Shown in pieces: positions 2,716 through 9,662 of a stretch of DNA of 11,097 nt. The notes under the pieces are model-generated. The model ran no database searches, was not told the DNA's origin, and saw nothing but the letters and a program-made list of their open reading frames with translations. The DNA is taken from NCBI GenBank assembly GCA_016208665.1, contig JACQXT010000026.1, positions 1-11,097 of the forward strand, given 5' to 3'. Position numbers and translations under genes: made by a program. This stretch comes from Chitinivibrionia bacterium. GTDB lineage: Bacteria > Krumholzibacteriota > Krumholzibacteriia > WVZY01. How positions within the stretch are numbered: the first letter of the stretch is position 1; every line of letters begins with the position of its first letter.

Positions 2716-5682
2716 ATGCTAGACGGACTGTTTAAAAAGATATTCCGGCCCAAATCGAAGCGCGACTTTGAACGCCACAAAGACGTCCTGCTGCGCGTCA
2801 ATGAATTCGCGGAATCGTTCTACGGCATGGCGCCGGCGGATTTCCCGGCCAAAACCGCGGAATTCAAGCAGCGAGTTTCTAACGGCGAACCGCTCGACAA
2901 CCTTCTTCCGGAGGCTTTCGGGCTCGTGAAGGCCGCATGCAAGTCTCTTGTCGGGGAATCGTGGGATGTGTGCGGACTGCCGATCACATGGGACATGGTT
3001 CCGTACGATGTCCAAGTCGTCGGCGGAATCATCCTTAACGGCGGTTCGATTGCGGAGATGGCGACCGGAGAAGGCAAGACGCTCGTCGCTACGATGCCGC
3101 TCTACCTCAACGCCCTTGCCGGCACAGGGGCCCATCTCGTCACCGTCAACGATTACCTTGCCAAGAGGGATGCGGAATGGATGGGAAAAATCTACGAGCG
3201 GCTTGGATTGACGATTGGATGCATTCAGAGCGATATGCCCAACGACGAACGCATCAAGGCGTATCGTTGCGACATCACCTATGGAACGAACAACGAGTTC
3301 GGATTCGATTACCTGCGCGACAACATGAAAACCCGCGTAGAGGACAAGGTTCAACAGGCGCATTTCTATGCAATCGTCGACGAAGTGGACAGCGTTCTGA
3401 TCGATGAAGCGCGAACGCCGCTCATCATATCCGGACCCATCATGGCGAGCGTCTCCTCCGAGCTGTTCGTGCGACTGAAACCGAAGGTTGAGCACGTCGT
3501 CACCCTGCAGAACCGCATGATCAACTCGCTCCTTTCGGACGCCGAGCGGACGGTGGACGATCCTGACGAGGACTTCGCGCGGTCCGTCCTGATGATACAG
3601 CGCGGCGCGCCGAAGAATTCGCGCTTCCTCAAGCTCAAGCAGCATTCCGGCGTCGATAAGATCATTCTGCGCGCCGAAGCCGATCTGATGCGGGAGAAAA
3701 GCCTTCACCTCCTCGACGAGGAACTCTACTTTGCGATAGATGAGAAGGCGAACACCATCAACCTCACGGAAAAAGGCAGAGAGACGCTGGCTCCCGAGGA
3801 CCGGGAACAATTCGTTCTTCCCGATCTGAGCGAAGAAATCGCGGCCATAGATAGGGATTCGAGCCTTCTCCCCAAGGACAAGATCAAGAAGAAAGATCAA
3901 TGCTACCGCAAATACGGCGAAAAATCCGACGCCATCCATAATTTCAACCAGCTCCTGAAAGCCTACACGCTGTTCGAGCGCGACGTGGAATATGTGGTGC
4001 AGGACGGAAGAGTCATCATCGTGGACGAATTCACGGGCCGCCTGATGCCCGGCAGAAGGTTTTCCGACGGCCTTCACCAGGCGCTCGAAGCAAAAGAGGG
4101 CGTGAAGGTCGAGGGCGAAACGCAGACGCTTGCCACGATCACGCTTCAGAATTACTTCCGCATGTACGAAAGACTGTCGGGCATGACCGGCACCGCGGAA
4201 ACCGAAGCGGAAGAATTTTTCAAAATCTACAAGTTGGATGTATCGGTGATACCGACGAACGAGGATGTTCGCCGCATCGATTACAACGATAGAATATACA
4301 AGACGAAGCGCGAGAAGTATAACGCGATCATCGATGAGATCATCCGGCTGCACGAACAGCCACTGCCCGTTCTCGTCGGCACCGTGAGCGTTGAAGTGTC
4401 GGAAACACTGAGTCGCCTTCTGCAGCGGCGCGGCATCAAGCACAATGTTCTCAACGCGAAATACTACCAGCCAGGACGAGGCACCGACATCAAGCTCGCT
4501 CCCGAAGTGATGAAATGCTCCGAGTGCGGCATCGGCACCGGTGAGACGGCGTGGAAGAGCAAGAGCGGCGCCGTGGACACGCGGGAATGCGAAGCCGACG
4601 TCCCCTGCGGGCTCCACATCATCGGCACCGAGCGCCACGAGGCGCGGCGGATCGATCGACAGCTCCGGGGACGGGCCGGGCGCCAGGGCGATCCGGGAGC
4701 TTCGCTCTTCTTCATGTCTCTCGAGGACGACTTGATGAGGCTTTTCGGCTCGGAGAGGATTTCGACCGTTATGGACCGGATGGGCGCACAAGACGGGGAA
4801 GTGATAACGCACCGGTTGGTAACGCGGGCCATCGAACGAGCCCAGCGGCGCGTCGAGAATCACAACTTCGACATACGAAAACGCCTGCTGGACTACGACG
4901 ACGTCATGAACAAGCAGCGCGAGGTCATATACGGCAGGCGTGACGAGATCATGCGGGCGGCCGACCTTTCCGAAATCACACAGGTCATGATCGACGACTT
5001 GATCGAATCTTCCGTGAGCCGGAGCATCGACACCTCGCAGCTCCAGGAGCACTGGGCGCTGGAGGACTTCCTTTCCGGCCTTGAAACGACGTTTCTTTAC
5101 CCGTTTCCCAGGCCGGAAACGGAGATAGAAACCCTCTCCCTCGAAGCGCTTACCGATTACGTGAAGGAACGCGCCCGTTCGGCGCTCGCGGCCCGGCACA
5201 CCGTCCTCGTCGAAGAACTGGGGAGCGAGGAAATGGTGAGGGAGTTCGGCAAGTACGTGCTTCTCCACACGATCGACGAGAAGTGGATGGATCATCTCCA
5301 CGAACTTGACTACCTCAAGGAAGGCATCCATTTCCGCTCCTACGCACAGAAGGATCCGCTCGTCGAGTACAAGAAGGAAGCGTTCCAGCTCTTTGCCGCC
5401 TTGAACGAGACCATCGACAAGGATGCTCTCACCGCGTTCTTCCATGCCAGGATCAGCACAGAGCGGCGAAGACGCGAACCTCCCTCGGCCACGGCGGTGC
5501 ACAAGGAGACTTCCCATTACGGCGTAGAAAACGCCGGTCTGGGGAGCACTCCTGCCACGAGCGCCGCCCTGAAAACGGCTTCCTCCACTCAACCGCGGCA
5601 AAGGGACGCCGCCAAGGTCGGCAGAAACGATCCATGCCCATGCGGAAGCGGCAAGAAATATAAAAAATGCTGTGGGGCATAA
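2716..5682 (+). CDS. secA: Preprotein translocase ATPase SecA, with an in-frame gap in motif V
   Basis: SecA is the ATPase motor that drives unfolded preproteins through SecYEG at the inner membrane. This 988-residue protein has the family in order. Walker A 'ATGEGKT' is at 116-122 and DEVD at 222-225. The preprotein-binding insertion runs from about 242 to 425. 'VDEFTGR' is at 436-442 and 'GMTGTAE' at 489-495. Motif VI '[13 protein letters not shown]' is at 649-661, followed by the helical scaffold/wing region. The SEC-C zinc tail has C974, C976, C985 and C986. Two features are odd. The family sequence between 'NAK.HQ' and 'GRGTDI' (about 22 residues including 'TIATNMA') is replaced by one Pro at 585-587. 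An insertion with C601, C604, C625 and C631 precedes '[10 protein letters not shown]'. ATG 2716 matches the family N terminus ('[10 protein letters not shown]'); the frame extends upstream to a TTG, but that extra sequence is not SecA-like. No clear Shine-Dalgarno is visible. Family identity is certain; full activity is doubtful if the gap is real. Confidence 0.97.
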
Positions 5683-5834: not shown

Positions 5835-6116
5835 ATGATAAGTCGATTGATGGATCTCGTTCTTCTCCTTGCGGAAATGAACGAGCGCGATGACAGACCT
5901 TTGAAAGACATCGGCAAGGAGCCGTCCTTGCAGGGCTATACGTCCGAGGAAATAACCCAGGCCATGTCCTGGATATCTTCAAGCAAGACGGCGGCAAACA
6001 CCTGCATGACCGAGGTCTCCCGGTGCGCGAGCCAGCGTGTGCTCACTACCTGGGAGATATCAATAAACAAGATAAACCTTTTATCAAGCGCCCCATCCAT
6101 CGCGCACTCCTTATGA
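5835..6116 (+). CDS. DUF494/Smg-like small protein, probably C-terminally truncated
   Basis: From ATG 5835 this encodes 93 residues. The N-terminal half resembles the DUF494 (Smg) family: a short hydrophobic helix ('MDLVLLLAEMNE'), then 'GYTSEEITQAMSWIS' (34-48), close to the family's 'G(F/Y)..eEI..AL.WL' pattern. 'QRVLTTWE' (67-74) may match the start of the later conserved block ('RvL...E'). Family members I know are about 150 residues, so the C-terminal part appears lost. The last 25 codons are rich in TCA, TTA and ATA, unlike the neighbouring genes, suggesting decayed or shifted sequence. The stop overlaps the topA ATG (ATGA, 6113-6116), which allows translational coupling. AGGAG at 5819-5823 lies 11 bases before ATG 5835; an ATG at 5808 is also in frame. 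In several bacteria smg sits beside topA or a topA-like gene, which supports the call. The molecular function of Smg is not established. Confidence 0.6.
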   Translation: MISRLMDLVLLLAEMNERDDRPLKDIGKEPSLQGYTSEEITQAMSWISSSKTAANTCMTEVSRCASQRVLTTWEISINKINLLSSAPSIAHSL

Positions 6117-8320
6117 GCAAAGCTTCCCTCGTCATCGTCGAATCGCCTGCCAAGGCCAGCACTATCAAGAAATTCCTCGGCAAGAATTACGAGGTCATCG
6201 CATCGGTGGGCCACGTGATGGACCTCCCGAAAAACGAGCTCGGCGTCGATATCTCGAACGGGTTCGCGCCGAAATACATCGTCTCCAAAGGCAAGCAGAA
6301 AATCCTCCTGAAGATAAAGAAAGCTGCGAAAGAGTCGTCCGAAGTCCTGCTCGCCCTTGATATGGATAGGGAAGGAGAAGCGATTGCCTGGCATTTGCAG
6401 CAATTCCTGGCTCCTGTTCAGAGCAATATCAAGAGAATCATTTTCAACGAGATCACGAAGAATGCGATTCTCGAGGCCGTCGCCTCCCCGCACGAGGTCG
6501 ACATGAACAAGGTCCTCGCGCAGCAGGCCCGGCGAATCCTCGACCGGCTCGTCGGATACCAGATCAGCCCCATTCTCTGGCAGATCTTCTATTACGGCTT
6601 GAGCGCAGGAAGGGTGCAGACGGTCGGCCTGAGGCTGGTCCTCGAGCGCGAAGACGAGATTCTGGCCTTTGCGCCCGAAGAATACTGGAGCATCGAGGCT
6701 TCGCTCGGCGCCCCGCCCGGCGAACCGTTCCGGGCTAAGCTCACGCACCACCAAGGCGCCAAGGTAATGCTCGGCCGCAAGGAGGACGTGGATCTTATTT
6801 TGAAGTCGCTCGAGGGCGCTCGGTTCCGCGTCGATGCAATCGACAAAAAGAAGAAAAAGCGAAACCCCCAGCCTCCCTATATCACCAGCACGCTTCAGAG
6901 AGACGCCGCCCGGCGTCTGAAGTTCTCCGCGAAAAAGATCATGGTGATTGCGCAGCAGCTGTATGAAGGCATCAATCTGGGCAAAAAGGAACGAGTCGGG
7001 CTGATAACCTACATGCGCACAGATTCGGTCAGAATTTCAGATCAGGCCGGCCGGAGCGCGCGCGGTTTTATTCAGGAGGCCTTCGGAAAGGAGTACGTGC
7101 CCGCGAAACCGAGGGTGTTTCATCAGAACAAGCGGGCGCAGGACGCCCACGAGGCGATCCGCCCGAGCGACGTTGCGCGGGGCCCCGAGGCCGTACAACC
7201 CTACCTCACGAAGGATCAGTTCGCCCTCTACGAGCTCATCTGGCGGCGCTTCATCGCCTCGCAAATGGAGAGCTGCCATTACGACACGACCGAAGCGAGC
7301 ATCTCAGCCGGCGACTGCATCTTCAAGGCCAACGGGAGGGTGATGACCTTCCCGGGATTTCTCAAGGTGTACGATGAAGATCTCGACAACGACGAGGGCG
7401 AGCTCCCTCCGCTGTCGATCGGAGACATCCTTTCGCTGCAGTCGCTCGAAGGACTGCAGCATTTTACCGAACCGCCGCCTCGCTATTCGGAATCGAGCCT
7501 CATTAAGGAGCTCGAGGACCGCGGCATCGGCAGGCCGAGCACGTATGCGAACATCGTATCGATCATTCAAGAGCGCGAATACGTGGAGAAAGAAAACGGC
7601 CGCTTTATTCCCACGACGCTGGGGAGGCAGGTCTGGGTCACTCTCAAGGGATTCTTCCCGAAGGTGTTCGACACTTCCTTCACGGCGATGATGGAGGAAG
7701 AGCTCGACAGAGTCGAGGGAGGCGGATACGAGTGGCAGAAAGTCGTGATGGATTTTTACGAGCCGTTTGAGAAATCCCTCAGCAAGATTGAAGAGAAGAA
7801 GGAGCGCATAAAGAGTTCTCTCCAGGAAGAAACGGACATAGCGTGCGAGAAGTGCGGCAGGAAACTCATCAAGAAATGGGGCAAGAACGGCCAATTTCTC
7901 GCCTGTCCGGCCTATCCCGAGTGCAAGTTTTCCCGTCCGCTCGAAGAGGAAGCTCCCGATCATTATCTTGAAACGCCGTGTCCGGTGTGCGGCTCGCGGC
8001 TCCTTCTCAAGAGAGGCCGATTCGGAAGATTCGCCGCGTGCGAGCGATATCCGGAATGCAAGCACACGCAGTCTTATCAGATCGGCGTCGATTGCCCGGC
8101 CAAGGGATGCAGCGGGAAAGTGGTCGAAAAAGTAACCCGCCGCGGCAAGATATTCTACGGATGCAGCCGGTATCCGAAATGCGATTTCGCGAGCTGGGAC
8201 AAGCCGGTTCCGCAACCATGCCCGCATTGCAAGAATCCCTATCTCGTAGAAAAGACATCCAAGAAGCGCGGGACATACTTCATATGCCCCTCATGCAAGG
8301 AAGAGATTTCTCCCGAATAG
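6113..8320 (+). CDS. topA: DNA topoisomerase I (type IA)
   Basis: This enzyme relaxes negative supercoils by transient cleavage of one strand through a 5'-phosphotyrosine. The 735 residues include a TOPRIM domain with 'VIVESPAKA' (E10) and the acidic triad D83, D85 and E87 in 'DMDREGE'. The active-site Tyr is Y300 in 'LITYMRTDS'. The toroidal core with 'GRPSTYA' follows. The C terminus (577-732) carries four C4 zinc motifs, opening at C578/C581, C623/C626, C661/C666 and C703/C706, usual for DNA binding in this family. All key residues are present. ATG 6113 gives the standard N terminus and overlaps the stop of the Smg-like ORF. No Shine-Dalgarno is seen, which fits translational coupling. The frame stays open upstream to 6023, but that segment is not TopA-like. 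trmFO starts 13 bases after the stop, so the two are probably co-transcribed. Confidence 0.98.
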   Translation: MSKASLVIVESPAKASTIKKFLGKNYEVIASVGHVMDLPKNELGVDISNGFAPKYIVSKGKQKILLKIKKAAKESSEVLLALDMDREGEAIAWHLQQFLAPVQSNIKRIIFNEITKNAILEAVASPHEVDMNKVLAQQARRILDRLVGYQISPILWQIFYYGLSAGRVQTVGLRLVLEREDEILAFAPEEYWSIEASLGAPPGEPFRAKLTHHQGAKVMLGRKEDVDLILKSLEGARFRVDAIDKKKKKRNPQPPYITSTLQRDAARRLKFSAKKIMVIAQQLYEGINLGKKERVGLITYMRTDSVRISDQAGRSARGFIQEAFGKEYVPAKPRVFHQNKRAQDAHEAIRPSDVARGPEAVQPYLTKDQFALYELIWRRFIASQMESCHYDTTEASISAGDCIFKANGRVMTFPGFLKVYDEDLDNDEGELPPLSIGDILSLQSLEGLQHFTEPPPRYSESSLIKELEDRGIGRPSTYANIVSIIQEREYVEKENGRFIPTTLGRQVWVTLKGFFPKVFDTSFTAMMEEELDRVEGGGYEWQKVVMDFYEPFEKSLSKIEEKKERIKSSLQEETDIACEKCGRKLIKKWGKNGQFLACPAYPECKFSRPLEEEAPDHYLETPCPVCGSRLLLKRGRFGRFAACERYPECKHTQSYQIGVDCPAKGCSGKVVEKVTRRGKIFYGCSRYPKCDFASWDKPVPQPCPHCKNPYLVEKTSKKRGTYFICPSCKEEISPE

Positions 8321-8333
8321 AACATCTTGACTC

Positions 8334-9662
8334 ATGAGTACCGTAACGATTGTCGGCGGGGGTCTCGCAGGGTCCGAAGCGTCCTGGCAGCTGGCTGGCC
8401 GTGGAATCGGCGTCACGCTGATTGAAATGCGTCCCGCCGCCGCTACCGGAGCGCACAGAAGCGGGAACCTGGCCGAAATCGTCTGCTCAAACTCCCTCAA
8501 GTCAATCCGTCTCGACACCGCTGCCGGTCTCCTGAAGGCCGAACTTGCCATTCTAGGGTCGAAGCTGCTTTCCGTCGCCGCCGAAAACAGCGTCCCAGCA
8601 GGCCATGCACTCGCGGTAGACAGAGAGCTCTTTTCATCCGCCGTGACGGCGCTCGTCGAAGGCCATCGGCTGATCGAGGTCCGCAGAACCCGACAGGACA
8701 CGCTCGATCTCGCTCTCCCCGCCATCATAGCGACAGGCCCGCTGACCGATCCTGCGTTGATGGAGGAGCTTGGAAGACATTTTTCGTCGAAATCCCTTTA
8801 TTTCTACGATGCGATAGCGCCTTCCATCGATGCGCGCACGATCGATGAATCCCGCTGCTTCCGGGGAAGCAGATACGGCAAGGGGGAACCGGATTACCTG
8901 AATGTGCCGCTGGACGAGGACGAGTATTCCGTCCTTCTTGATCGAATCAGAGGCGCCGATATTCTGCCGCTCCACCAATTCGAGGAGGAACGCTATTTCG
9001 AGGCATGCCTGCCGATCGAAGTAATGGCGGCACGGGGAGACGACACGCTCCGTTTCGGTCCGCTGCGGCCGAAGGGCCTGGCCGATCCCCGCACGGGAGC
9101 GGAACCGTATGCAGTCCTGCAACTCCGCCAGGAAAAGCGGGACGGATCGCTCTATGGTCTTGTCGGCTTCCAGACGCGCATGCGGCATGCCTCACAGGTC
9201 GACATGGTGAGATGTCTGCCCGGATTGGAAAGGGCGGAAATTCTGCGTTTCGGCGCAATTCACAGGAACTCCTTTATCGATACTCCGCGAGCCTGCGTTC
9301 GATGGCAGATGGACAGGAAGCAGCCGGGACTCTTTTACGCCGGCCAGCTGTGCGGCGTCGAGGGGTATGTGGAATGCATAGCGAGCGGCCTCGTCGCAGC
9401 GCTCTCCGTCTTCGCGCGGCTTTGCGGCAGGGAACTGCCTTCCATGCCCGGAGAAACACTCGTCGGAGCGCTCATGAACTACATTCATACCGAGCGGCCG
9501 GATTTTCAACCCATGAACGCCAATATGGGCATTCTGCCCCCCGCCCGCACCCGCGTGCGCGACCGCGGCAAACGGAACCTGATGCTGGCGGATAGGGCCC
9601 TTGAGGCGATGAGAGCATACCGGAACATGCATGAGTGGCTCTTCACCCCGGCGGCGCCTTGA
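8334..9662 (+). CDS. trmFO: Methylenetetrahydrofolate--tRNA-(uracil-5-)-methyltransferase TrmFO
   Basis: TrmFO makes m5U54 in the tRNA T loop using 5,10-methylenetetrahydrofolate and FAD, in the cytoplasm. The 442 residues match the usual family length. A dinucleotide-binding motif 'GGGLAGSEAS' opens the protein (8-17). 'EIVCSNSLKS' carries C51 and 'FEACLPIE' carries C225; these correspond to the functionally important Cys53 and Cys226 of the Bacillus enzyme. 'YFYDAIAPSID', 'SRYGKGEPDYLN', 'QTRM', 'GQLCGVEGYVE' and 'NANMGILPP' are typical family blocks. The common 'YLNCP' reads 'YLNVP' here, a minor change. The start at ATG 8334 gives the standard N terminus ('MSTVTIVGGG'); no Shine-Dalgarno is obvious, and the gene probably depends on read-through from topA. 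The topA-trmFO pairing is a conserved arrangement. Confidence 0.97.
   Translation: MSTVTIVGGGLAGSEASWQLAGRGIGVTLIEMRPAAATGAHRSGNLAEIVCSNSLKSIRLDTAAGLLKAELAILGSKLLSVAAENSVPAGHALAVDRELFSSAVTALVEGHRLIEVRRTRQDTLDLALPAIIATGPLTDPALMEELGRHFSSKSLYFYDAIAPSIDARTIDESRCFRGSRYGKGEPDYLNVPLDEDEYSVLLDRIRGADILPLHQFEEERYFEACLPIEVMAARGDDTLRFGPLRPKGLADPRTGAEPYAVLQLRQEKRDGSLYGLVGFQTRMRHASQVDMVRCLPGLERAEILRFGAIHRNSFIDTPRACVRWQMDRKQPGLFYAGQLCGVEGYVECIASGLVAALSVFARLCGRELPSMPGETLVGALMNYIHTERPDFQPMNANMGILPPARTRVRDRGKRNLMLADRALEAMRAYRNMHEWLFTPAAP

Follow-up and report, generated by a model that had tools for sequence, protein, structure and literature searches.

A 21-residue gap at helicase motif V of SecA is most likely an artefact of a draft bacterial genome assembly

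The secA locus and its neighbours

We analysed a stretch of 11,097 bases (hereafter the window), which is one whole contig (C134) of a draft assembly. The draft comprises 232 contigs totalling 1.86 Mb and is put at 66% completeness and 0.75% contamination. The window carries the following features:

72-2231: PQQ-type beta-propeller protein
Ending at 2598: cold-shock protein
2716-5682, forward strand: secA, 988 amino acids from an ATG at 2716, complete apart from the lesion, with NCBIfam and Pfam SecA domains
4465-4476, forward strand: junction of a 63-nt loss, reading Tyr for His at residue 584 (H584Y), then Gln, then a Pro that replaces 22 residues, then GRGTDIKL, as read from the sequence and its relatives
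5835-6116, forward strand: DUF494 (smg-like) gene, cut short, its homology stopping at about 6056
6113-8320, forward strand: topA, intact (TIGR01051)
8334-9662, forward strand: trmFO, intact (TIGR00137)
After trmFO: tyrosine recombinase of the XerC/XerD kind, scoring under the curated cut-offs of both
After the recombinase: start of a further gene

The window SecA scores above the curated NCBIfam cut-offs (PRK12904, 967 bits against 814; TIGR00963, 926.5 against 800) and retains most of the landmarks of the family, including the Walker A sequence MATGEGKT (residues 115-122) and the DEVD sequence (222-225) of the first nucleotide-binding domain, both in invariant columns, as well as motif VI (649-661) and the SEC-C tail (PF02810, 970-987). 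Motif V with its strand (TIATNMAGRGTDI) is absent, and GRGTDI alone is left in the assembled protein. Between motifs V and VI lies a Cys-bearing insert (4516-4608), perhaps a metal site, in which C604, C625 and C631 are shared by all of 61 aligned proteins and C601 by nearly all.

When topA was compared with five relatives, four matches (one spanning only 356 residues) had no gapped positions and the fifth had three; trmFO has none against three relatives. The DUF494 gene, which lies between secA and topA, ceases to match after about 74 residues, while five relatives continue for 70-75 codons before topA; the fragment scores 19.7 bits against a Pfam cut-off of 22.6, compared with 70.5 bits for the relative L113. 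This truncation is probably a further assembly loss on the same contig, and it was left out of the losses counted below because its exact size could not be fixed.

The motif V gap among SecA sequences

The preliminary description of this DNA had proposed a clean, in-frame loss of about 63 nt from secA, at motif V. Both the reading frame and the comparison with other SecA proteins and loci bear this out: residues 580-594, encoded at 4453-4497 and including an odd Pro codon at 4471-4473, are 21 residues (63 nt) shorter than in all other SecA checked, a loss that takes out most of motif V. Relatives aligned over the lesion, a check that the same description had recommended, carry the segment in recognisable form, and the window alone is short.

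The distance from the NAK block to the IKL block is 36 residues in 148 of the 151 SecA proteins fetched and 15 in the window's protein alone; the other two (P0092 and P0095) have the usual spacing and were missed by our search expression because the Gly of GRGTD is changed. We also examined 109 secA loci of other genomes (L004-L112), which are best matches, 29 from 57 other genomes plus the best 80 of 588. In this set, the spacing is exactly 36 residues at 103 loci and greater (40-46) at five, and one locus (L012) has the usual spacing with a stop codon within the motif. A search of the database directed at the junction (residues 566-605) returned the short form in the window's own protein only, among the 41 matches listed. 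The closest protein to the window SecA (P0002), which is 87% identical over the alignment, has the full segment; named relatives belong to Candidatus Latescibacterota and Krumholzibacteria. As a separate observation, the middle Gly of GRGTD is altered in L012 (from genome G039, where it reads as the stop TGA) and in P0092 and P0095 (Val and Glu in the proteins), which perhaps reflects base errors in draft sequences.

The rest of the gene shows no sign of relaxed constraint. In an alignment of 61 SecA proteins picked from 120 matches listed, the 60 proteins other than the window's agree without exception at 284 columns, and the window SecA departs from 12 of these, all at the lesion: ten are deleted, A586 is Pro (A586P) and H584, the His of NAK.HQ, is a Tyr adjoining the deletion. 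The remaining 272 invariant columns are all kept, indicating no decay outside the lesion. A screen of the secA neighbourhood in all directions among five relatives placed the secA lesion in the window only, the sole other event being a 10-residue linker difference of one relative (G005), which appears twice. The short form is true of the letters, and chance is ruled out as its cause. No N was found at the junction in a search of the contigs for N-runs, and the portions of the SecA motif V literature reached by our search yielded no report of a motif V deletion.

Losses across the draft assembly

A uniform two-way screen compared 40 contigs and the window, 348,114 bases in all, against 81 stretches of one relative, G002 (1,118,254 bases, of which at least 30,355 are N), our sole broad comparison genome; other genomes were used for secA, rpoC, dapF and DUF494 only. 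Opposite-strand open reading frames were dropped where a better gene overlapped, and genes of fewer than 100 residues were left out. The forward direction covered 57 matched genes in 49 distinct places (G002 paralogues matched the same place) and 15,782 residues, and the reverse direction 57 genes in 53 places and 14,652 residues. Eight losses were found in seven of the 57 matched genes of the window's genome, and a ninth, in rpsS, was found by eye:

rpoC: 69 nt, at about 3260 of contig C12 (screen; family match)
secA: 63 nt (screen; family match)
Bifunctional-nuclease-domain gene: 93 nt, another size being given by the automatic DNA split (screen; family match); C-terminal to most of the domain, so that natural variation may account for it
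TolB-like gene: 85 nt and 218 nt (screen; weak TolB match, with beta-propeller repeats)
Transglutaminase-like gene: 148 nt, at about 1990 of contig C27 (screen; transglutaminase core match)
pilT-like gene: 62 nt, at about 6370 of contig C15 (screen; PilT family match)
dapF: 74 nt, at about 7890 of contig C2 (screen; family match)
rpsS (S19): 62 nt with a change of frame, at about 14260 of contig C12 (by eye, too short for the screen; S19 family match)

In the reverse direction two rows passed, one for a 10-residue gap in an open reading frame opposite ribosomal genes and the other for a repeat protein (44-47% identity) that differs by 32 nt; we judged both spurious. The asymmetry gives p 0.004 in a sign test (8 versus 0), or p 0.055 were both reverse rows real (8 versus 2). 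The losses thus belong to this assembly, the relative being free of them, and they include essential, normally single-copy genes. Their rate, about one per 6 kb of coding sequence compared, is a lower bound because genes shorter than 100 residues fell outside the screen. Fifty of the 57 genes showed no loss by this screen, and AlaS and Lon, picked in advance as further tests, are both intact; SMC, the third gene of that test, was not found in the 66%-complete draft. The one-contig genome G004 has SMC in two pieces on opposite strands, about 450 kb apart: the first 130 residues (C1:263170-263559) and the remainder (712905-716123).

Two of the affected genes were compared more widely. The 23 residues absent from rpoC, which has a single match in the window's draft genome, occur in each of five other genomes in which we read this block (G002, L239-L241 and L244), and a segment also fills this site in the solved RpoC that matches best; L243 and L245 did not match the search expression for it. 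Similarly, dapF runs over two separate frames in the window's genome and is unbroken in the best match from each of five other genomes, one of these matches being cut by a contig end. In G005, which is a single contig, about 820 kb separate one half of rpoC from the other (C1:3660237-3662132 and 2838228-2840228), as a result of either a rearranged assembly or a real split.

The screen was preceded by a first pass at a threshold of six residues or more, which counted eight gaps in the window's genome against five in G002, shadows included; requiring at least half identity in both flanks left four against none, one of the four being an opposite-strand shadow of secA. Several candidates from this stage were set aside. 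Gaps in RpoB and in L122 (one gene, two gaps) had weak flanks, a 2-nt frame row falls between genes, and rplC, rplB, rplN, rplF and the ends of rpsQ and rpsH proved intact on reading the frames, with intergenic spacing alone differing (rplC, L3, is named by family match). Four rows had the appearance of lesions in G002, which is the longer sequence each time: one repeats the 218-nt loss and three concern neighbouring ribosomal genes, of which one led us to the loss in rpsS.

Ordered by size, the losses measure 62, 62, 63, 69, 74, 85, 93, 148 and 218 nt. No shorter loss passed the screen in real genes, within the reach of a method that cannot see in-frame losses of less than 24 nt. Three of the nine are in frame, as random lengths would give, and therefore selection for an open frame is not visible.

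Origin of the gap

The preliminary description had left three options for the SecA gap: a second secA, an unusual tolerated variant, or a segment lost in assembly. The last is the one for which evidence exists. Because other vital genes of the same draft show similar clean losses, the gap is most likely an assembly mistake, and we hold with high confidence that it is an artefact of the draft and not true of the organism. The genes secA, rpoC, rpsS and dapF, all broken at once, are at odds with a living cell, and tolerance under selection should favour in-frame losses in essential genes, while rpsS and dapF instead have their frames broken. Against this reading, the secA junction bears no N, 50 of the 57 screened genes are without a loss, topA, trmFO, AlaS and Lon are whole, and G002 is the only relative compared broadly.

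We propose that the organism itself has a full-length secA and that the fault arose when contigs were joined, the two flanking secA pieces having been connected directly with 63 nt omitted, in a join that would stay in frame by chance. The floor in the loss sizes suggests a more specific route. In an assembly graph with a k-mer length of 63, contigs that meet overlap by 62 bases, and an assembler that trimmed this presumed overlap from contigs having no true overlap would lose exactly 62 nt where they merely abutted, and more where a true gap lay between them. This idea would fit the sizes, although it arose after they were known. Of 40 sampled contigs, 14 contain runs of N, 18 in all and 5-101 bases long, which fit a scaffolded assembly unless some of them are masked stretches.

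A laboratory step could have produced the same pattern, if chimeras formed during multiple displacement amplification from one or a few cells had deleted these stretches before sequencing. A draft this fragmented, with 66% completeness and 0.75% contamination, could come from a single cell, and yet we consider this origin unlikely. Amplification chimeras are mostly inverted (406 of 475), and direct joins less than 10 kb apart make up just 11 of the 475 (PMC1855051). Such chimeras fit less well here because all the losses are direct, with no inverted join found in the 57 genes. At secA, moreover, no repeat longer than 4 nt is spaced 63 nt apart in nine relatives, in which a search for direct repeats that might mediate the loss returned matches of 3-4 nt at this distance in two loci only. 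A local repeat search in the window found short repeats only. Repeat-driven slippage at secA was likewise considered and rejected, there being no repeat found to explain it.

It is very improbable that the genome is truly decaying and that the losses are real pseudogenes. Losses scattered over several genes, often with a broken frame, are what decay would leave; however, rpoC, rpsS and secA should be the last genes lost in any living cell, SecA has kept every invariant column away from the lesion, and the lack of losses below 62 nt among those passing the screen in real genes also speaks against this reading. Least probable of all is a real, tolerated SecA variant, in which case protein export would depend on a SecA whose second nucleotide-binding domain is without the motif V strand and the preceding helix, or else a damaged secA accompanied by another, intact one: the frame is open, the rest of the gene is intact and 34% of the genome is absent from the draft, but the 1.86 Mb at hand hold neither a second secA (one full match and a SEC-C tail on another contig only) nor any match to a degenerate motif V pattern, no relative shares the junction among the 41 matches listed, and like losses in rpoC, rpsS, dapF and other unrelated genes, in and out of frame, need no SecA-specific cause. 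Thus, what stands of the preliminary interpretation is the clean in-frame loss, its place at motif V and the assembly option, and of its other two options the second secA is not supported and the tolerated variant is disfavoured.

The probable assembly origin of the SecA gap has implications for how such genomes are read. A striking deletion within an essential gene of a draft genome should be weighed first against the rate of loss elsewhere in that assembly, and here counting losses in both directions against a single relative was enough to make the artefact reading clear, with no recourse to the reads. The window's genome is unsuited to claims on lost or broken genes, and if the 62-nt floor reflects an overlap-trimming fault, other genomes of the same pipeline may share it.

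Assembler, platform and coverage have been identified as the source of many supposedly broken genes in bacterial genomes (PMC11017572). The spurious cases described there are frameshifts and internal stops, whereas those found here are losses of 62-218 nt, one third of which keep the frame. Compared with the SecA preprotein translocase ATPase (PRK12904, TIGR00963), the window SecA shares the SecA domains, Walker A, motif VI and the SEC-C tail, and the gene order of its locus is like that of its relatives; it differs from known SecA in that 21 residues at and about motif V are missing, a difference confined to this assembled sequence.
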